Assembly (NCBI GenBank): GCA_012730045.1 | Contig: JAAYBR010000047.1 | Span: 1-64,000, forward strand | Direction: 5' to 3' | Source: Candidatus Hydrogenedentota bacterium | GTDB taxonomy: Bacteria; Hydrogenedentota; Hydrogenedentia; Hydrogenedentales; CAITNO01 | Length of the DNA stretch: 64,000 nt | In this document: piece by piece, positions 305-25,108 of the stretch | How the letters are laid out: each line of letters opens with the position of its first letter | Position numbering within the stretch: position 1 is the first letter of the stretch | Program-made: the position numbers and the translations under genes | Notes under the pieces: generated by a model | Told to the model about the DNA's origin: nothing | The model's input: the letters and a program-made list of their open reading frames with translations, nothing else | Databases searched by the model: none

Positions 305-2337
305 CTATGCTTTCCTGCGGCCAACCACCGCGAGCAGGCTCAACGCCAGACCCGCCAAAAAGAGATCGCCCAGACGCCGCTTCAGGTTCATCAGTGTGAA
401 CCCGGATTTCTGGCATCCAAAACAACCGGCCTCCTCGTCAAGGCCAAGTTCTGCCCTGCCCAGCGCACCGTCGCCATCGGTGTCCAGTTCATTGAAGACG
501 GCCAGGGTAAGCCCTGGAATCGCGGCCAAGGCCTCCGCATAACTGATGCGCCCGTCCCCATTGGTATCCGCAGCATTAAATCCTGCGGCCAACAAGGCAT
601 GCACCTCCTCCACTGTGGGGGCCAGTGGCGGCTCGCCCTCGCCTTCGCCTGGGTCCGGTCCCTTCGAAACCACCAGGGACACCGAGCTGCCGGGGGCCGC
701 CTGCGCGCCCGCCGCCGGATTTTGGCTGATCACTGATCCCGCGGGAACCGTGGCGCTATACGCCTCGGTCACCGTGCCCACCGCAAGATCCGCCCCCGTG
801 ATGGCGGTCTGGGCCGCGCTCTGCGTCATGCCCACCACATTGGGCACGGAAACCGGCTGAGGACCCTTGGAGACCACGAGGTCCACCGCGTAACCGGCGG
901 ACACGCTGGTGTCCGCAGCGGGGGTCTGGCTGATGACCTGGCCCACCGGAACCGTGGCGTTATACGCCTCGGTCACCGTGCCCAGGGTGAGCCCGGCCCC
1001 GGTAATCAAAGTGGTGGCTGAAGCCTGTGTCTGGCCTACCACATTGGGCACCACAACCGCCGGCCCCTTGGAGACCAAGAGGGCCACCGCCGAACCGGAT
1101 ACCGCCTGCGCGCCGCCTGCTGGATCTTGGGAAATAATAGTGCCTGATGGAACGGAGTTGTCAAAGGTTTGGGTTACTGCGCCTAGTGTCAAGTCCGCCT
1201 CCCGTATGGCAGTGGTGGCCACTGCTTGTAGATACCCCTCCACGCTGGGAACAAAAACAGAATAGGGCACATACTCATAAGCGCCCATGTCAATACCCAC
1301 GCCATTTGGGCGGACTGTGCCAACCAAATCCACGAGGGGTGCCCCAGATGAGGTGCCTCTGTCAATACAGGGGGAATCCGCCCGCAAACGAAAATCACCC
1401 AGTGAGGGATTGATAAAACTGGGCTCTCCAACGATGTTGCCGGTGCCGCTCATGGTGGTGGGAAGACAACTGTATGACATAAGCGTAGACGATGTTTGTG
1501 AATTTGCCCCTGTATTTCCCGAAATAACACAGTTAACCGCTGCGCCCTCATATAACCCGGAGCCCAACGGCGCCGTGTTATATGCCACAGAACAATTCAT
1601 CGCTGTGCCTTGGTACATCCCGCCGCCGTAGAACCCACTACTGTTAAGCGTGAACAAACAGTTTATAGCCGTACCTTGGTGCATCCCGCCCCCGGAAGAC
1701 GCACGATTGTTTCTAAATATGCTTCTCGTTGCCGTGCCTTGGTACATGCCGCCCCCACCGCCAATTGCGGTGTTGAAAATAAACGCACAGTTTACGGCAG
1801 TGCCTTGATACAACCCAGCCCCATCAGTTGCCGTGTTATAAGTGAACACGCAGTTGGTGGCGGTCCCCCCGAACATTCCCCCGCCGTTGAGGCCTCCAGT
1901 TGATGAATATGTCGCTTTGCCCCGGTCATGGTGAAGCCATCCACTGCACCGCCGGAGATGGCGTACACACAGCGGCGGGCGTCTTCCCCGTTAATAATCG
2001 AGACGTTGTCGGTGTAGCTTCTATCGTCCCGGGCAGTTTCCGCGCCGGTGAAGCCACCGTAGAGGGTCACGCCGGATTTTAGCGTGACCACACCAGTGTC
2101 ACCAGTTCCGGTGTAAGACCCGGCCATGACCCAGATTTCATCGCCGGAGGATGCCTTGTCCACGGCCGCCTGGAGGGTGCCGCATGCCGTGGCCCATGAA
2201 GTCCCGGACTGTTCCCCTGCCCCGGCGGGGGTGACATACCAGACAGCGGCGTTGGCCGCAGTGGTGGGCAGCATGAGTAGGGTTGCCAGAAGGAAAAGAA
2301 CGGCAACGGACATACGTTGAGTCAAGCAGGTTTTCAT
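305..2337 (-). pseudogene. beta-helix/PASTA surface protein, frameshifted
   Basis: The reading frame starts at ATG 2337, 7 nt after an AGGAG, with an N-terminal signal peptide (hydrophobic core AVLFLLATLLML, cleavage near ANA-AVW). A polymorphic-beta-helix N-terminal domain follows. Near position 1917 the frame shifts by one base: adding one A to GCAAAGCG restores the continuous reading TGAKATYSSTGGLNGGG. The second part (ending at 305) has repeated GGGMYQGTA..C beta-helix rungs, then three PASTA-like repeats (each with VP..VG and VSKGP), an acidic/Pro linker, an EF-hand pair (DTNGDGRISYAEA and DTDGDGALGRAEL), and a C-terminal GCFGCQKSG plus hydrophobic helix plus GRRKA. This looks like a secreted, calcium-binding, surface-anchored protein of about 680 residues. 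Everything but one base is coherent, so the shift may be an assembly error rather than true decay. The ligand is unknown. Confidence 0.7.
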
Positions 2338-2592: not shown

Positions 2593-5500
2593 TCAGACGG
2601 AAGTGATGGCATACACCATGTCGCTGATCGCGCGGCGGAAGGCGTCGTTCTCGACGAACTGCTTGTAGACCTGGGTGTCATCCCGCAGGAGGCCCTGCAT
2701 CACCCGGTGCAGGGCCTGGTCGTGGGCCATGCGGGCGGTGTGCGGGGTGTTTTCCAGGGCGTTGCGGAACACGGTGTCCGCGGCCACCTTCGGCGCGATG
2801 TCGTCGCGGATGCGCCGGGCCACCCGGTCGGCGTCGTCAAACAGGGTTCCGAACTGCTCGTTGAAGGTTTTCAGGATGTTGCTGAGCCGGTCGTACTCCG
2901 GGTCGGGCTTCATGCCGCCGCCCTCGACGGGGACGGGGGGAATCTCCACATCCTCGTCCGCCAGCGCGATTCTCATCACCTCCCGCTTCTCCACCCGGTA
3001 ACTGTCCATGTCAATGGCTTCGAGGATGCCCTTGGCACCGTCCGGCTCCAGCGGCGCGGGCAGTTTCGGGATGAGCAGGTTGAGCAGGATGGACAGCCGT
3101 TCCCATTCGCGGTTGGTGTAGGTGATGACCGACGCGAGGAAGTCATAGGCGCGTGTGAAGGTTTTCGCCTTGCCCTTGAAGTCCACCTGGCCGTCCTCGT
3201 CGAGCCGCTCCACGTAAACGGCCACGCAGGCGTCGAGAAGGGGGTCGAGCTCCTCGCGGGGAGCCCCGGTGAGAAACAGCTCCACCACCCGGTCCCGCTG
3301 CTCAGGCGAGTACACCTGGGCATTGTCCAGCGCGGCCTTGAGGTCATGCAGCTTGTCCGGGTCCGTCTCCTCGGCGAGCAGTGTCGTGCGGTAATAGTCC
3401 TGAAACGCGTAGGTGACGGCCTCCGCGTTGTCCTGGAAGTCGAGCACAAACACGTCGTGCTTCTTCGGGTGGGCGCGGTTCAGCCGGGACAGCGTCTGCA
3501 CCGCCTTCACGCCCGACAGGGGCTTGTCCACATACATGGTGTGGAGCAGCGGCTCGTCATAGCCCGTCTGGAACTTGTCCGCGCAGATGAGGAAGCGGTA
3601 CGGGTCCTCCTGGAACGCCTCCGGGATGTCGCCGCTGGGAATGCCGTTGAGCGACGACTCCGTCACCTTCGCGCCACCGTATTCATGCTCCCCGGAAAAG
3701 GCGACGAGGGCGTGGTAGGGGCTTTTCCGCTCCAGCAGGTACGTCTGGAACGCGTGATAGTACTGGATGGCCCGCTCGATGCCGGAGCACACCACCATGG
3801 CCCGGGCCTGTCCGCCGATCTTTCCATACGCCAGCACCTGGTCGTGGAAATGGTCCACCATGATCTCCGCCTTCAGGCGGATCGCGTGGTCGTGGCTCTC
3901 CACATACCGGCGCAGCTTCTTCTTCGCCTTCTTCGTGTCAAATTCCGGGTCGTCCTCCACCTTCTTCACCAGCCGGTAGCAGCTCTCGACCGGCGTGTAG
4001 TGCCGCAGCACGTCGAGGATGAACCCCTCCTGCACCGCCTGCTTCATCGTGTAGCTGTGGAAGGGGCGGTGGCGCACCCGGCCCTCGGCGTCCGGCGGAA
4101 GCGCCTCGCCGAACATCTCCAGCGTCTTGTTCTTGGGGGTGGCCGTGAAGGCGAAATAGCTCGCGTTCCTGAGCATCTTCCGCGCCGCCATGCGCTTTTC
4201 CAGCGCGGCGTTCACCACGTCCTCCGGGTCCGGGCCGTCCGCCTCCCCGCCCAGCGCCTGGTTCATGGCCGAGCTCGTCTTCCCGCCCTGGCTGGAATGC
4301 GCCTCGTCAATCACGATGGCAAAGCGGCGTCCGCCCTCCCCGGCGATCTCGTCGAGGATGAACGGGAACTTCTGTACCGTCGAGACGATGATCTTCTTTC
4401 CCTGCTCGATGAACTTCCGCAGGTCCCCAGAGTGCTCGGCGTGGCCCACCGTCGCCTGCACCTGCATGAACTGCTTGATCGTCTTCTGGATTTGGTCGTC
4501 CAGCACCCGCCGGTCCGTCACCACGATGACCGAGTCAAACACCTCTTTCCCGCCGCGCTTCACGCCGATCAGCTGGTGCGCCAGCCACGCGATGGAGTTC
4601 GACTTGCCGCTCCCCGCCGAATGCTGCACCAGGTAGCGCCCCCCGGCCCCGTGCGCGTGGACCGCCGCCAGCGCCTTCCGCACCACGTCCAGCTGGTGGT
4701 ACCTGGGGAAGATTTGCACCCGCTTCTTCTTGCCCGTCTTCCGGTCCCTGGTCTCGACGATCTGCGCGTAGTTCTCCAGAATGTCCGTCAGGCCCGCAGG
4801 CGTCAGAATGTCCTTCCACAGGTAGTCCGTCTTCAGCCCGGCCGGGTTCGGCGGGTTTCCCGCGCCGTCGTCCCAGCCCTTGTTGAACGGCAGGAACCAG
4901 GACGCCTTGCCCTTCAGCTCCGTGCACATCCGCACCTCCGCGTCGTCCACGGCAAAATGCACCGCGCACCGGCCAAAGGCGAAGAGCGGCTCGCGGGGGT
5001 CCCGGTCGCGCCGGTACTGCTCCACCGCGTCCTCCACCGTCTGCTTCGTCAGGCTGTTCTTCAGCTCAAAGGTGGCAAAAGGCAGCCCGTTCACAAACAG
5101 GCACAGGTCCAGCGCGCGCCGCGTCTCGTCCAGGCTGTACGCCAGCTGCCGCGTGACCGAGAGCCGGTTCTCCGCGTGCAGCGCCGCCGCCGTCTCATTC
5201 CCCGGCGAGGGCGTCCCGTAGAACAGGGTGAAATGCTGCGGCCCGTGGTCCACGCCCCTCCGCAGCACGTCAATCACCCCCCGCTTCGTGATCTCCGACG
5301 ACATCCGCGACAGAAACTTGATGCGGATGATGTCGTTCGGGTCCCCGTAATTCCCCAGGCCGAGCTTCTCAAACGCCTCCTCCTGCGTCGCCTTCAGAAA
5401 CGCGAACAGCTGAAACGTGTCCAGGCAGTGCGCCCGGTCATAGTCCTTCGGGCTCCCCGCATGATAGCCCGCCCCCGAAGCATACCCCGCCGTCAAGTCC

Positions 5501-5598
5501 CCCACCGCGCCCCCCGACCCGGCGGACAACCCGTCCGTCCCCGTCAGGTGGCGCATGATCAGCGTCTCCAGGCCCTTCTCTGTGATGTCCGTGGTCAC
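2593..5598 (-). CDS. hsdR: type I restriction enzyme subunit R
   Basis: HsdR is the motor and nuclease subunit of a type I restriction-modification complex (R2M2S). It translocates DNA using ATP and cuts unmethylated DNA far from the target. Visible are a PD-(D/E)xK-type nuclease segment with FATFELKN near residue 175, Walker A AGSGKS near 327, VIDEAH near 430 and the helicase motif FTATP near 484. The C-terminal region ends in helical coupling segments. I chose the GTG at 5598, preceded by AAGGGG, giving about 1001 residues, normal for the family; an ATG at 5709 would add 37 residues of atypical Pro/Lys-rich sequence. Unlike a compact hsdRMS operon, hsdR is separated from hsdM/hsdS by other defence genes and lies beyond a terminator at 6309-6347, so it probably has its own promoter. 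Confidence 0.95.
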   Translation of the reverse strand: MTTDITEKGLETLIMRHLTGTDGLSAGSGGAVGDLTAGYASGAGYHAGSPKDYDRAHCLDTFQLFAFLKATQEEAFEKLGLGNYGDPNDIIRIKFLSRMSSEITKRGVIDVLRRGVDHGPQHFTLFYGTPSPGNETAAALHAENRLSVTRQLAYSLDETRRALDLCLFVNGLPFATFELKNSLTKQTVEDAVEQYRRDRDPREPLFAFGRCAVHFAVDDAEVRMCTELKGKASWFLPFNKGWDDGAGNPPNPAGLKTDYLWKDILTPAGLTDILENYAQIVETRDRKTGKKKRVQIFPRYHQLDVVRKALAAVHAHGAGGRYLVQHSAGSGKSNSIAWLAHQLIGVKRGGKEVFDSVIVVTDRRVLDDQIQKTIKQFMQVQATVGHAEHSGDLRKFIEQGKKIIVSTVQKFPFILDEIAGEGGRRFAIVIDEAHSSQGGKTSSAMNQALGGEADGPDPEDVVNAALEKRMAARKMLRNASYFAFTATPKNKTLEMFGEALPPDAEGRVRHRPFHSYTMKQAVQEGFILDVLRHYTPVESCYRLVKKVEDDPEFDTKKAKKKLRRYVESHDHAIRLKAEIMVDHFHDQVLAYGKIGGQARAMVVCSGIERAIQYYHAFQTYLLERKSPYHALVAFSGEHEYGGAKVTESSLNGIPSGDIPEAFQEDPYRFLICADKFQTGYDEPLLHTMYVDKPLSGVKAVQTLSRLNRAHPKKHDVFVLDFQDNAEAVTYAFQDYYRTTLLAEETDPDKLHDLKAALDNAQVYSPEQRDRVVELFLTGAPREELDPLLDACVAVYVERLDEDGQVDFKGKAKTFTRAYDFLASVITYTNREWERLSILLNLLIPKLPAPLEPDGAKGILEAIDMDSYRVEKREVMRIALADEDVEIPPVPVEGGGMKPDPEYDRLSNILKTFNEQFGTLFDDADRVARRIRDDIAPKVAADTVFRNALENTPHTARMAHDQALHRVMQGLLRDDTQVYKQFVENDAFRRAISDMVYAITSV

Positions 5599-6308
5599 GC
5601 CATGTGTCCCCTTGTGTTTTCCCGGTAAACCGCGCGCTATCCGCCGTTTCGTTTTCGCCCGCGCCTTGGCGGGTGTTGCCGCCGGGCCTCCGCATTTTTC
5701 CGGGTTCACGGCCCGGTGCGGCGATATTGGCTTTGCTCTTCAAAAAATGAAGTGCTATCCGTCCATCGGCGGGCGTTCCCCGGCGGGAAGACGCCCGCTG
5801 CGGGGCTCGCCGAAGGCGGTTTCGCATACCCTCCTTTGCTTCCGGCCATTCCCCGTGGGGGCGGGGCAACCGGCACCGTCCCCCATGGTGGCACAACCCG
5901 TTTCCCAATGCAACCGGGCCGCGGGGGCGTCACGCCGACTTGTCCAGCACTTCGTGAGCGCCTGATCGTACGATATGATTCTCCGGTCGTCGGCCCGCCG
6001 TGCTCATCGTCGCGCTTCACGCCCCGCTCCGGTTCTTTCCCGGCGCGCCGATTGGCTAATACTTCCACAACACCTTCCCAACCGCCCGGAAATTAACTAA
6101 TCCGTAAGACGTATCTGCGCAATGGGTTGAGAAAGAAAGACCATAGCAAGGTCAAGATAATATCCATAGACTATGGCGCGTTCAGGGGCGGATTTAACTA
6201 AAGACGCTCCAAGCCGTTCCACCCAGCCTCCCCGGGCCGTTCATGCCGCGTTGCGCTTTTGGCCCACCCCCTTATGAGAGCCTTGGGTTTACGGCCTTTC
6301 CTGCAGGC
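5599..6308. other. 710-bp gap upstream of hsdR
   Basis: No convincing gene; the open frames here are short and lack start signals. It should hold the hsdR promoter. A perfect inverted repeat CCATAG-A-CTATGG lies at 6164-6176, with a further CCATAG half-site at 6141-6146, in the only AT-rich stretch (about 6090-6175). An operator is possible. I could not place a convincing -35/-10 pair. Confidence 0.4.
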
Positions 6309-6370: not shown

Positions 6371-6523
6371 TTACGTGGTCTTGGGCTTCTGGCTGACGGG
6401 GGCCTTCGGGTCTTTCCAAGCCGGAAGGGTCTTGACATCATTGGCCGCCCTTCGCACGGCCTCCTGCATTTCCTTTGGGCTTAGATGAAGCTTTTTTACC
6501 TGCTCCGCCGGGTTGCTGGCCAT
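6371..6523 (-). CDS. 50-residue protein overlapping avcD 3' end
   Basis: A small gene starting at ATG 6523 behind AAGGAG with 7-nt spacing and ending in TAA at 6371. It overlaps the last 86 nt of the dCTP deaminase gene in another frame. The product begins MASNPAEQVKKLHLSPKEMQ and continues as a charged, helix-forming sequence with an RRAANDV segment and a Pro/Lys-rich tail. I do not recognise a family. Support comes from the strong ribosome site, the balanced composition, and the terminator just downstream. By contrast the overlapping deaminase tail is low-complexity Gly/Lys/Pro, suggesting that the small frame is the one under constraint. By position it could be an immunity or regulatory partner of the deaminase; this is inference. 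Confidence 0.6.
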   Translation of the reverse strand: MASNPAEQVKKLHLSPKEMQEAVRRAANDVKTLPAWKDPKAPVSQKPKTT

Positions 6524-8045
6524 CGGGGTCTCCTTTCAGGTGCGTTTTGAGAATAGTAACAACAAGCGCCTCCCGTTGCAAATAGCTGGAGGGAAGCATG
6601 GGAATCCTTATGGTTCCCGCCTTCCGGTTCCAGGGCACCGTTGCGCCGGTGTCCTTGTTCTTCCGCGTCAAGGGGAATCCGGACCCCTGCCTCATGGAAA
6701 AAAGATCGAAGAACCGGCGGGGGCCGATCCCCACGAAGGGCTCGAAAGCCACAAGCCCGCCCTTCTTCTGGTCGCGCTGGAAGCCCGGAAAGGCCGCGTC
6801 GTCATGGAACTTCAAGGCCCTGCTCTTGGGATAGGGCTCGATGTAGACCACCCGCGTGATGCCGGCGGCGATGATGTGCTTGGCGCAGTTGTGGCAGGGG
6901 AAGGTGGTCGAGTAGAGCGTCGCCCCCTTGCAGTTGATGCCGTTCCGGGCGCAGGTCATTAGCGCGTTCATCTCGGCATGGACAACGCGTCCGTACTCCG
7001 TGATGTCGTCTATGGGGCTGCGCCCGATGGCCTCCCGTATGGCCTTTTCACTGGCGGCCCTGCCCTCCTGTCCGCACGCGGCGCACACCCCCTCAACGGC
7101 GCGCACAAGGCTGTTGACCAGCTCCGCCTTTTCCGCGTCATTGCTGTCGCATTTCCGCCTGTAGTCCCTTCCCCGCGGCGTGTCGAGCACCTCCCCGGAG
7201 GGGGTGACATGGGGCCAGTAGGCGCCCCCGCCCGCGCAGGGGCACTCGTTGACGCCGGTTGCGAGCACCTCATTGTCCCGGGCGATCACCGCGCCGATCT
7301 GCCGCGAGAGGTCCGCCGAGCGGGTGGCCGCGGCGAAGGCCATGAACATGGCGTATTCGTCGAACAGCGGGGTGCGGTAGGGGTCCGCGAAGACAACGTC
7401 AAAAAAGCGGGTCAGGGACTGCCGCGCCGTCCGGTCCAGGTGGATGAAGAAATCGCTGAGATGAAAGGTGTCCCGCGTCCGCTGTCCGCAGGGAACCCCC
7501 TCGGCCTCGTCCCGCTGCATCAGCGCCCGCGCCTCCGAGTCCTTCATGTCTTTAGTTTTGAGGAGGTTGGTGTGGCGCTGTTTGGGGTCCACATAGACCC
7601 CGACGAGGAAGAACCCGTTTCCATAGATGCGGCGCAGCAGGTTCACCTCGTCCGGATGCTTCAGGGAGTTGATCACAAAAGCGTGCCGGGGGCGCGGCGA
7701 GGAGTCGGTCCGGCCCCCGTATATCTGCGCCGAGGCCACCATGGCGAGAATCGCGTTGTCCTTGGATGTTTCCCGCGCCTCGTTCCCGAGCGTCATCATG
7801 GTGTCTATGCGCGTGTATTCGCTCGCCCCCGCCAGGTCCGGAACCTCCACCACATGGGAAATCAGCTCCGAGAGCCGGATCACCACCGTGGTGTAGTCAT
7901 ACCGCTCCAGACAGCTGCTGATCCGCGGAACAAGCGACCCCAAGTCCGCGCCCACTGAACCCACCAAGCCGATAACAAGCTCAGCACCTGGAAGCTGTCC
8001 GGACAGAATGCTCCTGTAATGTTCTTCACGGTCCGCGTTGTCCAT
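6438..8045 (-). CDS. avcD: anti-phage dCTP deaminase (AvcD/DCD type)
   Basis: A two-domain protein of 535 residues. The N-terminal third is P-loop kinase-like (LVIGLVGSVGADLGS near residue 25). The C-terminal half is a zinc-dependent cytidine/deoxycytidylate deaminase fold with HAEMN near residue 356 (His ligand and catalytic Glu) and PCHNC near 382 (two Cys ligands). Known members deplete dCTP/dCMP after phage infection and block viral replication; in Vibrio the enzyme is held inactive by an upstream small RNA, AvcI. Here the ATG lies only 14 nt after the hsdS stop, leaving no room for an independent upstream RNA. It is co-transcribed with the restriction genes. The last 30 residues are low-complexity and overlap a separate small gene. 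Family assignment is strong; the mode of control here is unknown. Confidence 0.88.
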   Translation of the reverse strand: MDNADREEHYRSILSGQLPGAELVIGLVGSVGADLGSLVPRISSCLERYDYTTVVIRLSELISHVVEVPDLAGASEYTRIDTMMTLGNEARETSKDNAILAMVASAQIYGGRTDSSPRPRHAFVINSLKHPDEVNLLRRIYGNGFFLVGVYVDPKQRHTNLLKTKDMKDSEARALMQRDEAEGVPCGQRTRDTFHLSDFFIHLDRTARQSLTRFFDVVFADPYRTPLFDEYAMFMAFAAATRSADLSRQIGAVIARDNEVLATGVNECPCAGGGAYWPHVTPSGEVLDTPRGRDYRRKCDSNDAEKAELVNSLVRAVEGVCAACGQEGRAASEKAIREAIGRSPIDDITEYGRVVHAEMNALMTCARNGINCKGATLYSTTFPCHNCAKHIIAAGITRVVYIEPYPKSRALKFHDDAAFPGFQRDQKKGGLVAFEPFVGIGPRRFFDLFSMRQGSGFPLTRKNKDTGATVPWNRKAGTIRIPMLPSSYLQREALVVTILKTHLKGDPDGQQPGGAGKKASSKPKGNAGGRAKGGQ

Positions 8046-8059: not shown

Positions 8060-9400
8060 TTATTCTCCCTCATCATCCATGATTTCGTCCGGGGAGGCAA
8101 ATTCCTCCTCCTCGGGGGACGGGTCGGGCTCGGGACTCCCGGCGGCCGCCGGCAGACGCGACGCCGCCGCCCGCACGTCCAGCTTCCCCGTTACCACGTC
8201 CGACGTCAGACGCGTCCGGTATTCGCGCAGAAGGGTGATTCGACGGAGCAGACATGATATCGCAGCCGTGAGCGGGGCTGTCTCGCCAATAAGATCTCGG
8301 GCGATAAGCTCTCCTTCGCTCTCAGGGGGAAAGGGAACGGCAAGGTTCTTAATGCGCTCCACAGAAAGCCCCGGCTGGGCCGCAGACTGGGAGTATTGGT
8401 TGAGGTTCATCGTACGGAGGAGCTCCCCTAACCACTGCACAGATATTCCTGGTCGCAGAGTTGCCACAACCGCATGTTCTGAGGCGAAGAACTTTCCTTG
8501 AGCATAGTTGATATTGCCGCAAAGCGCCCCCTGCCTACCTATCAACACGTAGTGCCCATCGTGTGTGTATCTTGATGTGTATCCCCGCATGCCGTTTCCG
8601 CCAAACACTGGGTAGGGGCCGGTTTCTTCAATCTCCTGAGAAGTGATCCCGTCCCCACTCTTTAGCTGAGCTATGTTCTTCATCCGCCTCACCTCCCAAT
8701 GGGCGGGGATGTCCCCTAGCCAGGGGATGCCGGAGGGTTTCAGGGGGGCGTTGGGGTCGAGGCCGCGGGTGACGGCGCGGTGGATGATGGCCTGTTTCTG
8801 CTCGTTGAGCAGGGTGATGATCTTCCGCTTCGCCCGGATCGCCCGCTCCAGCCGCCCGTTCGCCCAGTCCAGAAAACGCACGATCGCCGCCTGCTCCTCC
8901 GCCGGGGGGAGGGCTACCGGCATTCTCTTGAAGTGCGAGAAGTCCAGATTTTGGCGGAGTCCGGATCCATAGCCGTATATGGCCTTGCTTCTGTCCCAAA
9001 CATTGAGAAACTGGAAGCCAAAAGAGGGCGCCATCCCCGCTTTTGTTCGCAGGGCCAAATAGGCCGAGGTGATGATTCCCCGATCATGAACCATGCCCAC
9101 GCGAAGGCTCGTGTGATCGTTTTGAAGGTCGGTGGTTCGGAGGACGATGTCGCCGGGGTTGACAATCTGATAGGTCTCGAAGGACTCCGGGACAAGCCCG
9201 TGCAGCTTGTCTGCTGGCTTGACGACAATGCGCCCGTAACTGAGAGAGAGGACGGTCTTCTCCCTTAGACCGCGATTCCGCTCAAGAACGGGCGTATACG
9301 CCCCAAACGCTGGGCGAAGCTCCCAATGCCCCGGCACGCTTCCCGCCCACGGGAGCCCGGAGTCCTTGTATTCGGGGTAGGGCTTGAGGTCGGCGATCAT
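8060..9400 (-). CDS. hsdS: type I restriction specificity subunit S
   Basis: A 446-residue HsdS. Two target-recognition modules are visible, each introduced by a similar segment: SGLPWAGSVPGHWELR near the N-terminus and SGIPWLGDIPAHWEVRR near residue 228. Each is followed by a helical spacer containing the usual LL.EQKQAII or LREYRTRL pattern. HsdS binds the bipartite DNA target and directs both HsdM and HsdR. The start codon overlaps the stop of the DUF262 gene upstream (ATGA), so translation is probably coupled. The end carries an acidic tail (PDEIMDDEGE). It is intact and of normal length. Confidence 0.92.
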   Translation of the reverse strand: MIADLKPYPEYKDSGLPWAGSVPGHWELRPAFGAYTPVLERNRGLREKTVLSLSYGRIVVKPADKLHGLVPESFETYQIVNPGDIVLRTTDLQNDHTSLRVGMVHDRGIITSAYLALRTKAGMAPSFGFQFLNVWDRSKAIYGYGSGLRQNLDFSHFKRMPVALPPAEEQAAIVRFLDWANGRLERAIRAKRKIITLLNEQKQAIIHRAVTRGLDPNAPLKPSGIPWLGDIPAHWEVRRMKNIAQLKSGDGITSQEIEETGPYPVFGGNGMRGYTSRYTHDGHYVLIGRQGALCGNINYAQGKFFASEHAVVATLRPGISVQWLGELLRTMNLNQYSQSAAQPGLSVERIKNLAVPFPPESEGELIARDLIGETAPLTAAISCLLRRITLLREYRTRLTSDVVTGKLDVRAAASRLPAAAGSPEPDPSPEEEEFASPDEIMDDEGE

Positions 9401-11499
9401 GCCTGCCCTCCGTCGCCCATCTGGCGTTCGAGGGCCTGGCGGACGAGTCCCATGATGTAGGGGAGGTCATCGAGGGACTTGAAGCCGATTTCCACGTCGC
9501 CGTTTCCCCAGCGCCCCCGGTCTGTGACATCGGTGCAGAGGCTCTTGGGGTCGTTGATTTCGTTGAAGGGCAGGTTGAGGCTGAGGCGGAGTTGTTTGGC
9601 CTGGGGGACAACGTCCACGAAGTTGGTTTCGGCCTTGTAGGCCACATAGAGCTTGAGGAACTCCTCGACCACGCAGGGGTCCAGAGCGAGCACCTCTTTC
9701 CGGAAGGCCTCGAAGAGGTTGCGCATGCCGCCTTTGGCGAGGGCTTTGTGGTCCTTGATGGAGTAGCCGCCGGTCGCGGGGGCCTTTTTCGGCTTATAGG
9801 CGGCGAGAGTGGTGGCGTCGAGCCGGGGCGCGGCCCACACCTGGAGGGCGAGGTCGGCCAGCTGTCCGGCGCGGTTCTGGATGGCGGCCTCGTTCCACGC
9901 TTTCGCCTGTTTCAGGGCTTTGTTGAGCTGGAGCGGGCTTTCCTTGAAGCCGCCCGTCATGTCGCGCTTTTTGTCAAAGGGCTTGTCGCTGTATTCGGCG
10001 TTGTATCCCGTGAGGGTGAGGTTGCCGAGGGTGTGGAGCCACTGCTGCTGGACGCGCTGCCAGTCATCGCCCAGGGCCTTCCGCCACGCCGGGGAGAGGT
10101 CGGGGTTCTGGGGCAGGATGTGCTCGATGGTGTACTCGTCCACCGCCACTCGCTCCTTGCGTTTGTGGTTCTCCATGCGGCGCAGCCAGTAGCTTCGGCT
10201 GCGGAAGTTGTAGAGGTCGCGGGTGTGCAGGTCGCGGCGGAACTCGTCGTCGCGGGGGAAGCGGCGGTAGGAGGGCAAGGACAGGAAATGCGCCTGGATG
10301 CTTTCGAGGTAGCGGTCCTTCTTGAGCGCCTTGCCAAAGTTGGCGAAAGTCTTTCCTATCGAGTTGGTGGGGATGGCGCATACGGCGCGGCGGAACACAT
10401 AGGCCTCCACCAGGCGCACGGCGGCGGCGAGGTCGGCGGCGGAGAGGGTTTTGCCGATGTAGTCGTGGTACAGCTCCAGGAGGAAGGGGTAGGCCACGTC
10501 CACTTTCAGCTCGCGCAGGTCGTGGAAGGCGGCAGCGAGGGCGCGGTTCTTCTCCCGTCCCAGGGCGAGGGCGCAGAAATACCCGGCAAAGGCGCGGATG
10601 TTCTTCACCAGTTCCTCGATGCCCGCCTCCAGCACGGGCTTTGTGCGGGAGTGGTCCTTGAACGCCTCGTAGACCTCGCGCTCGCGCGGAATGTCGCCGG
10701 TGCGCACGGTCAGGTAATGGCGCATGAAGCTGTCGAACTGGGTGCCGTAGGCCTCCTGGCCGAAGTCCTGCTCCATGGGCCGCCAGTAGTCCTCATAGAG
10801 GCGGGTTTGGAGGTCGGGCTCGAGCCCCATGAGGATGAAGTTGCGGATCAGGTCCGCCTGGCTCAGCTCCTTGCCGGTGGAGTTCATGCTCTCGAAGATG
10901 AGCTGGGGGTTGTCATGTTCCCCACTGAGGGCGATGTCCACCACCCCCAGCTTGGCCAAACCCCGCCACACCGGCACAAGGTCGTCCTTCCGCGCCGCGA
11001 TGAGGTCGGTGAACAGATCAAAGTTCTGCATCACGCGCAACGAGGGTTCCTCGGGCGGCTCGGTGTTTCGGATGACCGACTTGAGCGTGGCGTTGTCCGT
11101 CTGCGAGAGCAGCAGCTTAAAGAAGCGGTCGCCCTTCTCAAGGCGGTTGGTGAGGTAGTACTCACGCAGCTTGGGGGCGGAGAATCCGTCCTCCGGCTCG
11201 GTGTCGCCGAGGGCGCGGGCGAGCGCCTCCATGAGCAGGGAGACCGAGGCGAGCCGCTGCTGGCCGTCAATCACCAGCAGGGGGGCCTGGTGCGAGACTT
11301 GGGAGAGCCCCTGCTCCACGTAGACGATGGAGCCGATGAAGTGCACCGAAATATTGCCGCTGGACCCGGCGCGCAGGATGTCGTCCCAGAGCTGGCGGCA
11401 CTGTTTCTCGGTCCACGAGTACGTGCGCTGATAGATCGGGATCACAAACTGCGGCGACTTCTGCAGGAACACAAGCAGCTTGGCTTCAGTGGCTTTCAT
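9397..11499 (-). CDS. DUF262/DUF1524 GmrSD-like defence protein
   Basis: A 700-residue protein in the style of GmrSD type IV restriction enzymes and Brx/SspE-like nucleases. The N-terminal DUF262 ParB-like domain has IPIYQRTYSW near residue 18 and DGQQRLAS near 75, the nucleotide-using motif. The middle/C-terminal DUF1524 region has the HNH-type motif EHILPQNP near residue 460 followed by LGNLTLTGYN. The last 120 residues resemble a DUF5655-type domain (NLPFNEI, DVEIGF). Related enzymes cleave modified phage DNA. The gene is flanked by an Abi gene and hsdS and overlaps hsdS by 4 nt. The association with hsdM and hsdS suggests a layered defence: type I against unmodified DNA and this protein against modified DNA. 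The substrate is inferred. Confidence 0.88.
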   Translation of the reverse strand: MKATEAKLLVFLQKSPQFVIPIYQRTYSWTEKQCRQLWDDILRAGSSGNISVHFIGSIVYVEQGLSQVSHQAPLLVIDGQQRLASVSLLMEALARALGDTEPEDGFSAPKLREYYLTNRLEKGDRFFKLLLSQTDNATLKSVIRNTEPPEEPSLRVMQNFDLFTDLIAARKDDLVPVWRGLAKLGVVDIALSGEHDNPQLIFESMNSTGKELSQADLIRNFILMGLEPDLQTRLYEDYWRPMEQDFGQEAYGTQFDSFMRHYLTVRTGDIPREREVYEAFKDHSRTKPVLEAGIEELVKNIRAFAGYFCALALGREKNRALAAAFHDLRELKVDVAYPFLLELYHDYIGKTLSAADLAAAVRLVEAYVFRRAVCAIPTNSIGKTFANFGKALKKDRYLESIQAHFLSLPSYRRFPRDDEFRRDLHTRDLYNFRSRSYWLRRMENHKRKERVAVDEYTIEHILPQNPDLSPAWRKALGDDWQRVQQQWLHTLGNLTLTGYNAEYSDKPFDKKRDMTGGFKESPLQLNKALKQAKAWNEAAIQNRAGQLADLALQVWAAPRLDATTLAAYKPKKAPATGGYSIKDHKALAKGGMRNLFEAFRKEVLALDPCVVEEFLKLYVAYKAETNFVDVVPQAKQLRLSLNLPFNEINDPKSLCTDVTDRGRWGNGDVEIGFKSLDDLPYIMGLVRQALERQMGDGGQA

Positions 11500-11550: not shown

Positions 11551-12447
11551 TCACAGCTTTCCGGCCTGTGCGCCGCCGCCCTCAAAACCCATGTTGCGCC
11601 TCGGAACCCCGGGAAAGGCGTCCATCAAGGCATTCCATTCACGCCGAAACTCCCCGTCTTTCTCCAGAGGGGTCAGGAGTGATTTCAACACAAACACTTG
11701 GGCCGCGAGCCGGGTATGTCCGCTTCCTGATTCCTTGAAGGCATTGGGCAATGCCGGCCTGATCTTGAAGTCGCGGTTCCATATGCGGGAGTGGTGGGCG
11801 CAGAGGTTTCTCAGCACAGAGAGGGCGTGTATCCAGGACTGGAGATGGTACGGCTTCGTGGAGAAGACGCCGGCCACCGCCTTCTTGGCTTCGTGACTGG
11901 CAAGATGCGCGTATATCTTTGACCAGCGGCCAATGGACAGGATTTCGCTCATCATCCAGGCGGGCGGGGTCGGGGGCTCGTCGTATTTGGCCCGGTAGCT
12001 GCGGATGAACACCTCGTCCTTGTTGCGTTCCGACTCCTCCTCGCAGTCGGTGCGCAAACGGACAAAATGAAACCGGTTGTCGTACATGCCGGGATTCAGA
12101 TGCCAGTGCGAATCATTGGTCCGCGTGCAGAGTTCATGGCAAACGGCCGCCCGGAACGCCACCTCAACGGGTTCTATGAACCGGAACAGCAGCGCGCGCA
12201 GGCGGGAATCGAAGTCATACAGGTACAGGACATCCTCGATCCTTGTTCCTGCGGCAAACTGGTGTGTCCGCTGGCCGCCGGAAAACAGCTCGTAGTGGAG
12301 GGCATACCCCGAGAACCGGTAGTAGTTCAGATGCAGGAGCGCGTTCTCAGCGGCCTTCTCATCGGCGATCAGCATGCCCCGTGTTTTCAGCAGGGCGACC
12401 TGGTCCGCCAAAGCGAGGGGCGGCTTGGAGAAGACATTGGCGCTCAC
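11551..12447 (-). CDS. Abi_2 family (AbiD/AbiF-like) protein
   Basis: Abortive-infection-type protein of the Abi_2 family. Seen are the N-terminal LNYYRFSGYALHYE pattern, LYDFDSRLRALLF and IEPVEVAFRA in the middle, and the conserved C-terminal RNLCAHHSRIWN, a HEPN-type R-x4-H motif typical of these putative RNases. The start is taken as GTG 12447, preceded by GGGGAG; an ATG at 12603 would add 52 residues unlike the family. The length, 298 residues, is normal. It lies between hsdM and the DUF262 gene in the same direction with no terminator between. Known relatives cause phage-induced growth arrest, some by acting on RNA, so an RNase role is probable but not proven here. Confidence 0.85.
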   Translation of the reverse strand: MSANVFSKPPLALADQVALLKTRGMLIADEKAAENALLHLNYYRFSGYALHYELFSGGQRTHQFAAGTRIEDVLYLYDFDSRLRALLFRFIEPVEVAFRAAVCHELCTRTNDSHWHLNPGMYDNRFHFVRLRTDCEEESERNKDEVFIRSYRAKYDEPPTPPAWMMSEILSIGRWSKIYAHLASHEAKKAVAGVFSTKPYHLQSWIHALSVLRNLCAHHSRIWNRDFKIRPALPNAFKESGSGHTRLAAQVFVLKSLLTPLEKDGEFRREWNALMDAFPGVPRRNMGFEGGGAQAGKL

Positions 12448-12682
12448 GGCAGGCTCCCCTCTGCCATACAACGCGCCAACAGGCTTTTTGGCTGGGATAG
12501 CGGCGCGTCTTCCGGAGAAAAAAGGAAAGGCCCACCCTGGTTCGCAGTTTTCCCGGAGGAAAACCGAGGCGCGGTGGGCGCTGTTACTCTTACTATACCA
12601 CAAACTGGCACAGATTCAAACTGGCGTTGCACCGGTGCAACGAAAAAGAGGCCGTGTGCGCGGCGGGTTGCCCGGTTCCCTC

Positions 12683-15040
12683 TCATGCGTCGGCGCTCCC
12701 CTTCAGGAGCCCGTCCAGCAGCCCTTCGGCCTCCTTTTCGGCGGCGAGGATGTCTGCGGCAATTTCCTCGAGCGTCCGCAGGGGGGCGGGCTGGTAGAAG
12801 TGGCGGGTGAAGCTGATTTCGTAGCCGATTTTGGGGTCCTCGTCCTTGATCCAGGCGTCGGGGGTGTAGGGGAGGACTTCGCGGCGGAAGAAGGCGTCTA
12901 TGCCCTCCCTGGAGGAGGCTTCGGTGGGCAGGCCGCCGGGGTTGCCGGAGGGCGGGGCTTCGAGGAAGGGGATTTGCTCGGTGTCGCGGAGTTCGGGGTC
13001 GGGCTCGTATTCGACGAGGACCGGTTTGCCGTCCACGACGGCCTCGAAGAGTCCGCGCAGGGGGTTGGGAGGGGTCTTCCCCGGCTTGAGGACGCGGGCG
13101 ATGACGGGGGGCGCGGTCTCGTCGCGGAGGCTGAGGGCGCTGAGGAGCGCGCGCCGCTCGACGGTGGACAGGCGGACACCGAGGCGGCGGAGGGTTTCCT
13201 CGGCGGTGTCGCGGAAGGCGTTGTAGTCGTCGAAGGGGGCGCCGCCGAGGGCCTCGAAGAGGGCGGTGGCGGCGTCGGCGAGGCGTCCGTCGCGTTCCCA
13301 GGTCTTGGGGTCAAGGAGCTTCTTCCGGCGCTTCTCGGGGAGTCCCTTGCGGGGGGCGGTGTCGGCGCTGTCCTCGTCCTCGTCGGTTTCGTCGTCGGTC
13401 CAGTCGTCGAGGTGTTTCTCCACATCTTTGGCGCGGGCGGGGAAGTTGGTGAAGAGGTCGTCGCCGAGGCGGTCGTGGAGTTCGCGGCGGAGTTCGGGGT
13501 CGCCGGAGGCGTAGCGGAGGGTGTCGGCGGCGCCGGGGGTGATTTGTGCCCGGAGGCGCAGGGGGCGCTCGACGGTGACTTTCCAGTAGCCGAAGGCGGC
13601 ATTGGGGAAGATTTTGGATTCGGGGGTTTCCTGGAAGTCGAGGAAGGCGCGGGTGACGCGCTCGATGTCTTCGGGGGACAGCTCGCAGTTCTTCTTGCCG
13701 AGGTTCTTGCGGAGGGGCTTGAACCAGCGGGTGGCGTCTATGAGCTGGACTTTGCCCCTGCGGTGTTCGGGTTTGCGGTTGGAGAGGACCCAGACGTAGG
13801 TGGCGATGCCGGTGTTGTAGAAGAGGTTGAGGGGCAGGGCCACGACGGCCTCGAGCCAGTCGTTTTCGATGATCCAGCGGCGGATGTTGCTCTCGCCCTG
13901 GCCCGCGTCGCCGGTGAAGAGGGAGGATCCGTTGTGGACCTCGGCGATGCGGCTGCCGGGGGGGGACTTGTGGTTCATCTTCGAGGCCATGTTGGCGAGG
14001 AAGAGCATCTGGCCGTCGCTGGAGCGGGTGACCAGGGGGAGCTCCGCGCCGCCGTGCATGACGCGGAAACGGGGGTCGCGCATGCCGTCTTTTCCGCCCA
14101 TGGCCTCCAGGTCCTTCTTCCAGCTTTTGCCGTAGGGGGGATTGGAGAGCATGAAGTCGAACTCGCGGGCGGGGAAGGCGTCGTGGGAGAGGGTGGACCA
14201 TTCCGCGCCGCCGACGATGTGGTCGGCGTGGCCGCCCTCGCCCTTGAGGAGCATGTCGGCCTTGCACACGGCGTAGGTTTCCGGGTTGATCTCCTGGCCG
14301 TAGAGGTGGCAGTCAATCTCGAGGCCGCGCCGGGACGCGATGGCGGCGAGGGTCTCCTCGGCGACGGTGAGCATGCCGCCGGTGCCGCAGGCGCAGTCGT
14401 AGAGCAGGTAGGAGCCGGATTTCAGGCGGTCCTCGATGGGGAGAAAGATGAGGTTCGCCATGAGCCGGACCGCGTCGCGGGGGGTCCAGTGCTCGCCCGC
14501 CTCCTCGTTGTTGTCCTCGTTGAAGCGGCGCACCAGCTCCTCGAAGACGGTGCCCATGGCGTGGTTGTCTATGCCTGCGGGGGACAGGTCCATCTCGGGG
14601 TCGAGAAACTTGGAGATGAGGGTGCCGAGGGCGTCGGCCTTGGACAGGGTGGGCAGCTGGTTGCGGAACTTGAAGTTCTCCAGGATGTCCTGGACGTTCG
14701 GGGAGTAGCCGTTCAGGTAGTCCTCGAAGTCCGCCAGGAGCTTCTGCTGGGTGGCGCGGGATTTGAGGTCGCGCAGGGTGAAGGAGGAGGTGTTGTAGAA
14801 GGCCTGCCCGGCGGCGGTCTCCAGGGCGGCGCGCTGCTCCACGATGCCGGCCGCGTCGAGCATCCGCTTCGTTTCCAGCACGGCCTGCTTGGTCGGCTCC
14901 AGCACGGCGTCCAGCCGCCGAAGCACGCACATGGGCAGGATGACGTCGGGATACTTGCCCCGTTTGAAGAGATCGCGGAGCACGTCGTCGGCGATTCCCC
15001 AGATAAACGACACAATCTTGTTGTGGATGGCCTGGTCCAT
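12683..15040 (-). CDS. hsdM: type I DNA methyltransferase subunit M
   Basis: N6-adenine methyltransferase subunit of the type I system. The N-terminal helical HsdM domain (MDQAIHNKIVSFIWGIADDV...) is followed by the SAM-binding motif CACGTGGM near residue 215 and the catalytic NPPYGKSW near 298. At 785 residues it is much longer than the classic 500-residue HsdM. The extension, from about residue 560, is rich in Arg/Glu/Asp and contains ETLRRLGVRL and a late EISFTRHFY. Its first gene position, own promoter (15083-15111) and preceding terminator mark it as the head of the defence operon. Long HsdM variants with a C-terminal extension are known; the extension's function is not evident. Confidence 0.93.
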   Translation of the reverse strand: MDQAIHNKIVSFIWGIADDVLRDLFKRGKYPDVILPMCVLRRLDAVLEPTKQAVLETKRMLDAAGIVEQRAALETAAGQAFYNTSSFTLRDLKSRATQQKLLADFEDYLNGYSPNVQDILENFKFRNQLPTLSKADALGTLISKFLDPEMDLSPAGIDNHAMGTVFEELVRRFNEDNNEEAGEHWTPRDAVRLMANLIFLPIEDRLKSGSYLLYDCACGTGGMLTVAEETLAAIASRRGLEIDCHLYGQEINPETYAVCKADMLLKGEGGHADHIVGGAEWSTLSHDAFPAREFDFMLSNPPYGKSWKKDLEAMGGKDGMRDPRFRVMHGGAELPLVTRSSDGQMLFLANMASKMNHKSPPGSRIAEVHNGSSLFTGDAGQGESNIRRWIIENDWLEAVVALPLNLFYNTGIATYVWVLSNRKPEHRRGKVQLIDATRWFKPLRKNLGKKNCELSPEDIERVTRAFLDFQETPESKIFPNAAFGYWKVTVERPLRLRAQITPGAADTLRYASGDPELRRELHDRLGDDLFTNFPARAKDVEKHLDDWTDDETDEDEDSADTAPRKGLPEKRRKKLLDPKTWERDGRLADAATALFEALGGAPFDDYNAFRDTAEETLRRLGVRLSTVERRALLSALSLRDETAPPVIARVLKPGKTPPNPLRGLFEAVVDGKPVLVEYEPDPELRDTEQIPFLEAPPSGNPGGLPTEASSREGIDAFFRREVLPYTPDAWIKDEDPKIGYEISFTRHFYQPAPLRTLEEIAADILAAEKEAEGLLDGLLKGSADA

Positions 15041-15290: not shown

Positions 15291-15893
15291 TCAAGAAGGA
15301 TCGAAGTCCGGCGCGTAGAACCCGAGGGGGGTTTCACTGGGTTCCCGGGGAACCTCCGGTTCCGGGAGGGTTTCGAATGCGGCGGAGGGGGGAAGGTCCA
15401 TGCCGAACACCCTGCGGCCGAGGGCGGCCTCTTTCTCCACGTCGAAGTGGTTGGCCGGGTTGTAGGTGACCTCCACTTTGGTGCCTTTTGCGAAGCGGCG
15501 GCTGGGTTCCCGGTCCAGGATGGCCGTGGAGCACCGGACCCGGAGTTCGATGGGCGCGTCTATCTCGCCGATGGTCACCTTGTACAGCAGATTGACTGCG
15601 GCCGTCACGGCGTCAATCCCGAGGATCTTCTGGGACTCGAGCAGTGCGCAGGCGTTTTCCACCAGGATGCGTTCGACCTCCTCCTGCACGTCCTCGGACT
15701 CGATGACCCGGGCCGCCAGGGCGGGTGACATGCCCAACCGCCGGGCCACGGCCGAGGAGGAGAGTCCTATGGCGCACAAGCGGGCGATTTCCCGCTTGTG
15801 GTCGTTGAGCCCGGATTCCGTCACCATCAGGGCGTCATGCCTGCGGGTCGTCGGCAGGGACCCGGGACGATCTTCATTCTGTCGCTTCTTCAT
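15291..15893 (-). CDS. small helix-turn-helix protein, function unknown
   Basis: A 200-residue protein starting at ATG 15893 behind AAAGGA. Residues about 28-65 form a resolvase- or terminase-small-subunit-like helix-turn-helix (REIARLCAIGLSSSAVARRL then GMSPALAARVI), followed by a helical segment (DVQEEVERILVENACALLES) and a beta-rich part containing APIELRVRCSTAILDREPS. The C-terminus is Pro-rich. The pattern recalls phage terminase small subunits and related DNA-binding proteins of integrative elements, but I cannot assign it. It is the gene closest to the tRNA-fragment edge of the island, and a terminator isolates it from hsdM. Regulation or packaging by the mobile element would fit; this is inference. 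Confidence 0.55.
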   Translation of the reverse strand: MKKRQNEDRPGSLPTTRRHDALMVTESGLNDHKREIARLCAIGLSSSAVARRLGMSPALAARVIESEDVQEEVERILVENACALLESQKILGIDAVTAAVNLLYKVTIGEIDAPIELRVRCSTAILDREPSRRFAKGTKVEVTYNPANHFDVEKEAALGRRVFGMDLPPSAAFETLPEPEVPREPSETPLGFYAPDFDPS

Positions 15894-16131
15894 TTCTTGG
15901 ATCCTTTCAGTGGGGGGTGAAAAAAAGTAGTGTGCTCGGTGAGCGGGGGTGATTGATTGCGATGTCCCTGCCGTTTCCCCCCCCGTGCCCCCCCCGGGGG
16001 GGGCGCGTCGTGTCCCGACGAGGCGTGGGTGAGGCCGTCCTGGAATCTGGACAGGGGGTTGCCACCCGGCCGGAGGCCCGAGGGCTGCCGGACAGCGGGC
16101 GAATAGGGGAGACACATCCGGGATGGGGCAG
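15894..16131. other. gap at the island end
   Basis: No gene is supported here. The stretch contains a self-complementary run of C then G (about 15989-16009) that can form a strong GC hairpin, and probably the promoter region of the HTH gene. Together with 16132-16344 it forms the terminal segment of the island next to the attachment site. Confidence 0.4.
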
Positions 16132-16395
16132 TCACTTGCCAACCTCCCCGTGAGGCTGCCCTGTCAGTACCTCCGCCAGGACGGCGAGAAGCGTTTCCCT
16201 GTCAAGTGAGCGAAACAGTGCGAGCGCGGCCTGTTTGGGGTCGGTGGTTGCCCCCTTCTCCAAATCTGGGGCAAGTTGTGGGGCAGGTGTGGGTGTTCCA
16301 TCCGCGCAAGTTACTGATAGATATTCGTTTACATCTCCATGCGGCCAGCTTCCCAAGCTGGATGTCGCGGGTTCGAACCCCGTGTCCCGCTCCAT
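16132..16395 (-). other. ORF entering the island from the att site
   Basis: An 87-codon frame whose first 16 codons are the antisense of the tRNA-Gly fragment (MERDTGFEPATSSLGSW). That phrase is a familiar artefact where integrase genes read through tRNA attachment sites. The remainder (ATTDPKQAALALFRSLDRET, then LLAVLAEVLTGQ) has ordinary protein-like composition. It could be the C-terminal tail of an integrase gene that would be complete only in the excised circular form, or a chance frame. It has no ribosome site of its own. Confidence 0.3.
16345..16394 (+). other. tRNA-Gly(CCC) 3' fragment, attachment site
   Basis: The anticodon arm is intact (CCAGC, loop TTCCCAA with anticodon CCC, GCTGG at 16345-16361). 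It is followed by a 5-nt variable loop, a T arm (GCGGG, TTCGAAC, CCCGT), the acceptor 3' strand GTCCCGC, discriminator T and encoded CCA. The acceptor 5' strand should read GCGGGAC about 26 nt upstream, but that stretch is AT-rich unrelated sequence, and no D arm exists. A tRNA 3' half lacking its 5' half is the standard footprint of an integrative element at its distal end. The element lies to the left, host DNA to the right. The intact tRNA should lie beyond the left end of the window. Confidence 0.8.
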
Positions 16396-16464: not shown

Positions 16465-18081
16465 TCAGAAGAGCACCTTGAGAAGCCCCGGCAAAACGAA
16501 GGAGGCCGCTTTGTCCAAATGGGGCGGTTCGACGGAGTCCGAATTGTAGAGGTCCGCAACGGTGCGGGCCACCCGCGCGAGCCGGTCCATGGACCTTGTG
16601 GTAATGCGATGGCTGTCCACAAGCTCCTTGTACCGGGTCGCGGCCGATGCTGAGAAGGAACAGTAGTCCATGATGTGGCCGCCGGGAATGGCCGCGTTGA
16701 AGGGAATGGTGGTTCCCTCAAAGCGCTTGTCCTGCCGCCGTCGTGCGATTTCAACGCGTGCCCGGAATTCGGTGGAAAGGTCCTTGGCTGGTTCGGCGAA
16801 GCGTTCCTCCGTGCTCAGCGTCTGCATTTCCACCTTCAGGTCAATGCGGTCGAGAATGGGACCGCTTATCCGGCTCTGGTACTTCTTGACATCCTTTTCG
16901 GAGCACCGGCAGCGCTCATCTCCGTAGTATCCGCAGGGGCATGGGTTCATTGCGGCGACCAACGTGAAACGGCTGGGATACTCAACGCTGGCGCCGACCC
17001 GGGAAATGCGGACGACTCCATCCTCCAGCGGTTGGCGGAGAGCTTCCAGGGTGGACGGAGAGAACTCCGGCAACTCGTCAAGAAACAGCACCCCCAAGTG
17101 GGACCGTGTGATTTCCCCTGGGACAGGGACCCCCGCCCCGCCACCAACGAGGCCGGGTTTGGTGACGGTATGGTGAACGGTTCTAAAGGGGCGTCGATGC
17201 ACCACCATGCCGTCTTCTTTCAGTTCGCCACAGGCCGAATAGATGGTGGTGATTTCAACGACTTCCCTGCGGGACAATCTTGGAAGGATTCCAGAAATGG
17301 CGTTTGCCAGAAGGGTTTTTCCTTCCCCTGGCGGGCCGATGAGAAGAATGTTGTGGCCCCCCGCCGCGGCAATCAGAGCCGCATCCTTGGCCTCCTTCTG
17401 TCCCTTCACCCTTCCTATGTCTGGGGCTTTTTCGACGACGGCGTCATAGTCAATCTTCTGCGCCAATGCGTTTGGAAGGGGGTGCACCCCCTTGAAGTAA
17501 TCCACGACCTGCTCCAACGAGGACACCGGACAGATAGCGGTCCCCTCGTGACCGGCTGCGGCCGTGATAAGAGAGGCCTCCCGTTCGTTGCCTGCGGGCA
17601 GGATAATCGCCTGACCCGCCGTGGTAAGCCCTGCAAGGGAGAGCACACCCGGAACGCGGCGGACGTCACCATGAATTCCGATTTCGCCAATCACCAGAAA
17701 ACGCTCTTCCGAGACTTCTCTAAGGTCAGGCAGAATCCCTGCGGCCTGCAATGAAATGATGGCTATGGGAAGATCGAGCCAAGTCCCGCCCTTGGGAAGG
17801 TCCGCCGGAGACAGATCCACCAAGATTTTGACATGTGACTGCGGAATCTTGAGCTTTTTGAATGCGGCGTCAATCCTCCGGGCGCTTTCCTTGATAATGT
17901 CCTTTGCCATGCCGGTTATCTGAACGCATGACATGACGTCACAGGGGCCGGGCAGCACGGATGTGGCGCGGGCACGAAGTTCTACGCGCCTGCCTTCCAG
18001 GCCCCAAAGAACCCCGCTGTACAGGGTGTGATCCCTTTCCAGGAGATGGTCGAGTTCGCGCTGGCTGTATCTGGGGTGCAT
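16465..18081 (-). CDS. comM: YifB/ComM family Mg-chelatase-like AAA+ ATPase
   Basis: A 538-residue member of the YifB/ComM family, a hexameric helicase that promotes branch migration during integration of transforming DNA. The N-terminal Lon-like domain (ELRARATSVLPG...FLVIGEIG) is followed by Walker A GPPGEGKT near residue 250, Walker B GVLFLDELPEF near 325 and the Cys cluster NPCPCGYYGDERCRC near 375. The C-terminal Mg_chelatase_C region has the usual RVARTVADL. The start ATG 18081 follows AGGAGGG by 6 nt. It is the first normal chromosomal gene right of the attachment site, with its own promoter (18117-18146). Confidence 0.93.
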   Translation of the reverse strand: MHPRYSQRELDHLLERDHTLYSGVLWGLEGRRVELRARATSVLPGPCDVMSCVQITGMAKDIIKESARRIDAAFKKLKIPQSHVKILVDLSPADLPKGGTWLDLPIAIISLQAAGILPDLREVSEERFLVIGEIGIHGDVRRVPGVLSLAGLTTAGQAIILPAGNEREASLITAAAGHEGTAICPVSSLEQVVDYFKGVHPLPNALAQKIDYDAVVEKAPDIGRVKGQKEAKDAALIAAAGGHNILLIGPPGEGKTLLANAISGILPRLSRREVVEITTIYSACGELKEDGMVVHRRPFRTVHHTVTKPGLVGGGAGVPVPGEITRSHLGVLFLDELPEFSPSTLEALRQPLEDGVVRISRVGASVEYPSRFTLVAAMNPCPCGYYGDERCRCSEKDVKKYQSRISGPILDRIDLKVEMQTLSTEERFAEPAKDLSTEFRARVEIARRRQDKRFEGTTIPFNAAIPGGHIMDYCSFSASAATRYKELVDSHRITTRSMDRLARVARTVADLYNSDSVEPPHLDKAASFVLPGLLKVLF

Positions 18082-22300: not shown

Positions 22301-22320
22301 AAGGGATGAGGGGGCGCCTG

Positions 22321-22375
22321 TCTTGGTCCCCCCTAGAGGGGGGTGGTTCGCGGGAGCGAACCGGGGGATGTTCTT
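22321..22375 (+). repeat. 55-bp terminal inverted repeat, left
   Basis: Matches the reverse complement of 22866-22920 at 53 of 55 positions. It contains two internal hairpins, CCCCCC-TAGA-GGGGGG and GGTTCGC-GGGA-GCGAACC. It begins 20 nt after the glycosidase stop, and its last base is the last base of the DUF559 stop codon. Confidence 0.9.
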
Positions 22376-22749: not shown

Positions 22750-22865
22750 GTGTGTGTCTTCCGGTATATAGCGCGCGCGAAGAGAGCGGAATTTCGGTGC
22801 CTTCTGCAAGCTATCACATCTAGAGGTGCTTTCCAAGAACACGACATGGGTCTATGCCAAACCCC

Positions 22866-22920
22866 AAGAACATCCCCCGGTTCGCTACCGCGAACCACCC
22901 CCCTCAAGGGGGGACCAAGA
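22866..22920 (-). repeat. 55-bp terminal inverted repeat, right
   Basis: Inverted partner of 22321-22375 (two mismatches). Its outer 36 nt are translated as the C-terminus of the GH89 gene. Confidence 0.9.
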
Positions 22921-25098: not shown

Positions 25099-25108
25099 GG
25101 CGGGCCTC

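Follow-up and report, generated by a model that had tools for sequence, protein, structure and literature searches.

A tRNA-Gly(CCC) fragment at the edge of a Hydrogenedentota defence island probably adjoins the stranded C-terminal end of a tyrosine integrase

What does the isolated 3' half of a tRNA gene mark when it lies between a cluster of defence genes and an apparently normal comM gene? We addressed this question for a stretch of 64,000 bases from a Candidatus Hydrogenedentota genome (hereafter the window; bases 1–64,000 of contig C47, so that its left end is the contig end). The first-pass annotation of the window had reported a 3' half of tRNA-Gly(CCC) at 16345–16394 and had read it as the distal end of a tyrosine-recombinase element that targets this tRNA gene. 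Genomic islands targeted to tRNA genes are a familiar phenomenon, and Mx8 and SSV provide known examples of integrases that reach across the attachment site attP (PMC4383910).

The reported 50 nt read CCAGC TTCCCAA GCTGG ATGTC GCGGG TTCGAAC CCCGT GTCCCGC T CCA and comprise the whole anticodon arm (CCC), the variable loop, the T arm, the acceptor 3' strand, and CCA. They are identical to the 3' part of the intact tRNA-Gly(CCC) in many Hydrogenedentota relatives (E down to 1.7e-25), which excludes a chance origin and confirms the first-pass identification, except that the homology already begins at G26 (16344), one base further to the left. The D arm and the acceptor 5' strand are lacking, as had been claimed: unrelated sequence takes their place, and the 5' part of the relatives' intact genes (GCGGGACTAACTCAGTTGGTAGAGTG) is missing here. 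ARAGORN called no tRNA in the window, and the score of the fragment against the Rfam tRNA model was sub-threshold (19.9 bits at a cut-off of 29). The break near the anticodon arm could recall an intron-split tRNA or one assembled from two separate gene halves, but it falls at nt 26, ahead of the anticodon loop, and the genes of the relatives are uninterrupted. The motif GCGGGAC, which the first-pass annotation had named as a sign against its own reading if found together with a D arm at an intron-sized distance upstream, is absent from the + strand everywhere left of the fragment in the window, and thus no intron-split 5' half is present here. The only 5' half detected in the whole assembly is that of tRNA-Gly(TCC), none being found for tRNA-Gly(CCC), so that a split tRNA is refuted as far as the assembly goes and has, in our estimate, a nearly negligible probability.

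The defence genes announced to the left of the fragment are indeed there, encoding HsdM, HsdS, HsdR, a GmrSD-type protein, AbiD, and a dCTP deaminase (Table 1). The cargo of nine complete elements in related genomes is mixed: some carry restriction genes, and others encode AAA_25 or DnaB-like helicase and primase domains; defence is therefore a frequent cargo and not the rule.

Table 1. Features of the island end and its right-hand neighbour in the window
Feature	Position	Strand	Evidence or remark
PASTA/EF-hand protein	305..1876	−	Cargo; PASTA protein in G007 island too
HsdR, type I restriction subunit	2593..5709	−	Cargo
Anti-phage dCTP deaminase	6438..8045	−	Cargo; NCBIfam equivalog above cut-off; PADLOC dCTPase 2e-160
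HsdS, type I specificity subunit	8060..9400	−	Cargo
GmrSD-type restriction protein with DUF5655	9397..11499	−	Cargo
AbiD/Abi_2 abortive infection protein	11551..12603	−	Cargo
HsdM, type I methyltransferase	12683..15040	−	Cargo
ORF just inside distal end	15291..16142	−	35% identical over 119 aa to ORF at distal end of G007 island; no known family
Open frame of 86 codons: tRNA-antisense stretch ERDTGFEPATSSLGSW, then predicted stranded integrase C-terminal tail	16135..16392	−	Frame and translation; tail-profile match; frame same as G007 integrase end
Predicted helical hairpin of tail	16162..16239	−	AlphaFold2 on tail alignment; helices at tail residues 37–46 and 50–62; local pLDDT ~87–90
tRNA-Gly(CCC) 3' part, nt 26–76; probable distal attachment site of island	16344..16394	+	Sequence; 100% match to tRNA positions 26–76; intact genes in relatives
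comM, complete, outside island	16465..18081	−	Mg_chelatase, ChlI, and Mg_chelatase_C domains

A complete counterpart of the island exists in G007, a genome from the same family, where a tyrosine integrase of 576 residues on contig C68 enters an intact tRNA-Gly(CCC) (11623–11698) from its 3' side and a 3' fragment of the same tRNA lies at 31531, the distal end of a 19.9-kb element with a core of 58 nt. The other genes of this element encode an HTH protein, HsdM, HsdS, HsdR, a Schlafen AlbA_2 protein, and a PASTA protein, of which the type I restriction-modification genes and the PASTA protein, together with an ORF adjoining the distal end, are shared with the window island. The G007 integrase ends in ERDTGFEPATSSLGSWHSTN, residues that are read from the antisense strand of the tRNA, and its catalytic residues (R300, H431, R434, H457, and Y467) all lie before the core in a single ORF. 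Fragments of tRNA-Gly(CCC) also occur in G027, G030, and G023.

What the first-pass annotation had overlooked is that the fragment belongs to an integrase reading frame as well. An open frame on the − strand runs from the fragment into the island and, read antisense in the same frame as the integrase of G007, continues beyond the tRNA-encoded stretch ERDTGFEPATSSLGSW for 70 more residues that end in TDPKQAALALFRSLDRETLLAVLAEVLTGQPHGEVGK and a stop. The distal end in G007 reads on in the same way and is 52% identical to the window tail over 82 codons; a tail was likewise seen at the fragment in G023, not in G030. Judged from its sequence, this frame encodes a conserved integrase C-terminal module. 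AlphaFold2 gave disorder outside the predicted hairpin (mean pLDDT 65 for the tail), and no known domain matched the tail convincingly. Because the integrase runs antisense through the tRNA and the distal end continues in its frame, attP would lie inside the integrase gene, and the C-terminus would be replaced by tRNA-encoded residues. The long integrase form referred to below is a computed join of the two ends of an element rather than a natural ORF, as no natural full-length integrase ORF across attP was found in IMG/VR or in the genome loci. A tRNA pseudogene that arose through decay or through rearrangement without an integrase would be in line with the absence of an intact partner from the assembly; however, the 50 nt are undamaged, the break coincides with the site where the integrase-associated fragments of the relatives begin (tRNA positions ~26–31), and integrase tail sequence directly adjoins the fragment, which makes such a pseudogene very improbable.

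The same arrangement was found in all 10 complete Hydrogenedentota elements, located at nine tRNAs: the integrase is antisense through the 3' half of the tRNA, and the distal end extends its frame by ~60–90 residues. When the ends of seven of them, at tRNA-Arg(CCG) (twice), Phe, Asp, Ala, Pro, and Gly, were joined at the core by script, the integrase was each time extended in frame by 69–92 residues beyond the core midpoint. The frames of both ends also match in the other three, at Lys(CTT), Glu(CTC), and Val(TAC), the Val(TAC) fragment being cut by a contig edge. The two tRNA-Arg(CCG) elements use different frames of the tRNA, and each tail follows the frame of its own integrase. A profile built from 11 tails matched in 21 of the 68 genomes of the order, and tails were present in 16 of the 22 genomes with the integrase versus five of the 46 without it (p = 6e-7). 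Among the 19 tail loci outside the profile set, a tRNA match lies directly upstream in 16, mostly spanning tRNA position ~26–31 to the 3' end; one of these 16 is ambiguous, matching only ARAGORN's own call at that place (L352), and another has a stop inside the tRNA stretch (L354). Values of pN/pS among similar tails (~0.3–0.7, uncorrected) are as in translated sequence. Beyond the Hydrogenedentota, eight readable complete elements with related integrases were available, all from Planctomycetota; seven have an in-frame tail that reaches 66–92 residues beyond the core and mostly ends alike, and the eighth (L227) has no such tail. In phage records, relatives of the integrase were limited to short matches around the catalytic motif.

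These comparisons also bear on one alternative, an ordinary tRNA-targeted island in which fragment and integrase have no special relation and the adjoining open frame is due to chance or to an unrelated gene. Long open frames are common in high-GC DNA, and the window's own integrase is not visible, both of which would suit that explanation. Yet a stretch of at least 60 codons is open in the integrase's frame in 14 of 15 elements versus seven of the 30 other frames at these ends (p = 1e-5), the tail sequence is conserved between elements at different tRNAs and always stands in the integrase's own frame, and the tail profile picks up further tRNA fragments. We therefore consider an ordinary island improbable.

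One distal end in another genome departs from the single-tail arrangement: on contig C40 of G002 (L153), two tail copies lie close together, at 7540–7848 (+) and 8079–8186 (+), and outside the tRNA-Glu fragment the frame is similar to the terminal part of another integrase, a constellation that suggests the remnant of a tandem array.

The first-pass annotation had predicted an intact tRNA-Gly(CCC) and an integrase beyond the left end of the window; neither is visible, since the contig has no sequence to the left of the window. No intact tRNA-Gly(CCC) was found anywhere in the assembly, in which the best other matches to the fragment are tRNA-Gly(GCC) and tRNA-Gly(TCC) (83–84%). A search of the same assembly for the mate end found none; the integrase of this family on contig C4 belongs to another element, since it is located at tRNA-Val(TAC).

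The assembly (G000) holds several other elements at tRNA genes. That on contig C4 (L096, L109) is the genome's second element of this integrase family, with the integrase at 951–2579 (+), ~950 bases from the contig end, and tRNA-Val(TAC) at 2525–2601 (−); no distal end was found for it in the assembly, and the same integrase end occurs in the same-genus genome G001, also at tRNA-Val. Contig C14 carries a 5.8-kb element whose two ends are tRNA-Ala(GGC) and a 52-nt repeat of the 3' part of that gene (L097; 3537–3588 and 9300–9351), with an integrase of 456 residues that is of a different family and distant from the intact tRNA; a related element lies near tRNA-Pro(GGG) on contig C94 (L098). On contig C75 (L100), two complete and identical copies of tRNA-Leu(AAG) (3440–3524 and 10848–10932) stand 7.4 kb apart within a 90-nt identical block and enclose a tyrosine integrase, which suggests that in this case the entire tRNA, and not its 3' half, is duplicated.

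To the right of the fragment, the description of a normal comM gene holds in so far as the gene is complete, whereas its placement in the stable backbone is less certain. The same-genus genome G001 has long matches to window positions 21152–31000 (86–87% identity), and its contig ends at the point corresponding to window ~21152, short of the place where an empty site would lie; between 16395 and 21152 it gave no comparable match. Since, in addition, the best relatives of the window comM are in other families (60% and 57% identity, others ~42%), the segment 16395–21152 may be variable or acquired. Further to the right, the gene at 27313–28257 is matched in G010 (77%) and in G005 (73%), in both cases within a few kb on the downstream side of the intact tRNA-Gly(CCC), and this mildly supports the idea that the window site is the old tRNA-Gly(CCC) locus. 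A 600-base segment at window ~22311–22917, absent at that place in G001, is bounded by inverted terminal repeats (TTGGTCCCCCCT...GAGGGGGGTGGTTCGCGG), copies of which were found at numerous sites in G001; it looks like a miniature inverted-repeat transposon.

The proposal of a tyrosine-recombinase element at tRNA-Gly(CCC) with the fragment as its distal end thus gains support from the complete arrangement in the same-family genome G007 and from the in-frame integrase sequence left of the fragment. With high probability, the fragment is the distal attachment site of a tyrosine-recombinase element that has attP inside its integrase gene and exchanges the C-terminus of the enzyme on integration; the architecture itself, an attP within the gene and a tail stranded at the distal end, is very likely. 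The crossover by which the element entered tRNA-Gly(CCC) would have fallen between its anticodon arm and its 3' end, leaving the chromosome's original 3' half in the window, while a new 3' half brought by the element would keep the tRNA whole beyond the contig end. In the excised circle, the integrase frame would pass antisense through the tRNA-like core in attP and end in a C-terminal module of ~60–90 residues. Integration would cut the gene at the core and leave the module behind the tRNA fragment (window 16135–16344), the resident integrase gaining a short tRNA-encoded end in exchange, and excision would bring back the long form. The sequences directly show the fragment, the frame, the conserved tail, and the complete architecture in relatives, whereas the left end that this island lacks, the excision itself, and the consequence of the swap are the parts of this scheme that we infer. 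By analogy with Mx8, the favoured effect of the swap, at roughly even odds, is a lowered or altered integrase activity after integration: the long form would integrate, and a weaker or altered trimmed form would stabilise the insertion. As the catalytic residues are all upstream of the core, the resident, trimmed enzyme may still be a recombinase. For the family as a whole, we slightly favour the view that this is a bacterial integrase lineage, widespread in Hydrogenedentota and Planctomycetota, whose attachment site is situated in its own gene. At many different tRNA genes, antisense tRNA sequence would serve as its coding linker, and every integration would swap a conserved helical module at the C-terminus, so that the gene itself would be the switch that sets either an integrating or a resident form.

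Among known systems, Islander-type islands share with these elements a tyrosine integrase, an adjoining intact regenerated tRNA, a displaced 3' fragment at the far end, and a length of 5–20 kb (PMC4383910). They also resemble the Myxococcus phage Mx8, whose attP, according to a review, lies within the integrase coding sequence, so that integration gives int a new 3' end that changes its behaviour without inactivating the integrase (PMC6070905); an attP inside the integrase gene and a renewed 3' end are also what we propose for the Hydrogenedentota and Planctomycetota elements. A frame that passes through attP into the far end was found in the relatives, from joined ends and matching frames, and the window shows the far end only. 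Mx8 is, however, a full phage. The elements described here are short, with genes for defence or replication as cargo, and their integrases, unlike that of Mx8, use many tRNA genes with antisense tRNA as coding linker. No homology to Mx8 Int was detected (3.3 bits with the integrase profile, no match with the tail), and a search of the openly accessible literature found nothing relevant on such integrases in Hydrogenedentota or Planctomycetota; what appears to be new here, from sequence comparison, is an integrase family distributed over many tRNA genes in two phyla and without recognisable relationship to Mx8 Int. The archaeal suicidal integrases of SSV1, pTN3, and pT26-2 likewise have their recombination site within the integrase gene, and integration alters that gene (PMC8371274), but they split the N-terminal from the catalytic part, whereas in G007 no catalytic part is separated: the catalytic domain is whole and only the C-terminal module would be exchanged. 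In practical terms, the tail profile locates distal island ends even where an assembly lacks the integrase end, as in the window. A routine island footprint is thereby tied to a possible built-in switch, in which the integrated or free state would be written in the C-terminus of the integrase. Self-disrupting recombinases have been reviewed as exclusively archaeal (PMC8371274); together with Mx8, the elements described here argue against gene-altering recombinases being confined to archaea.
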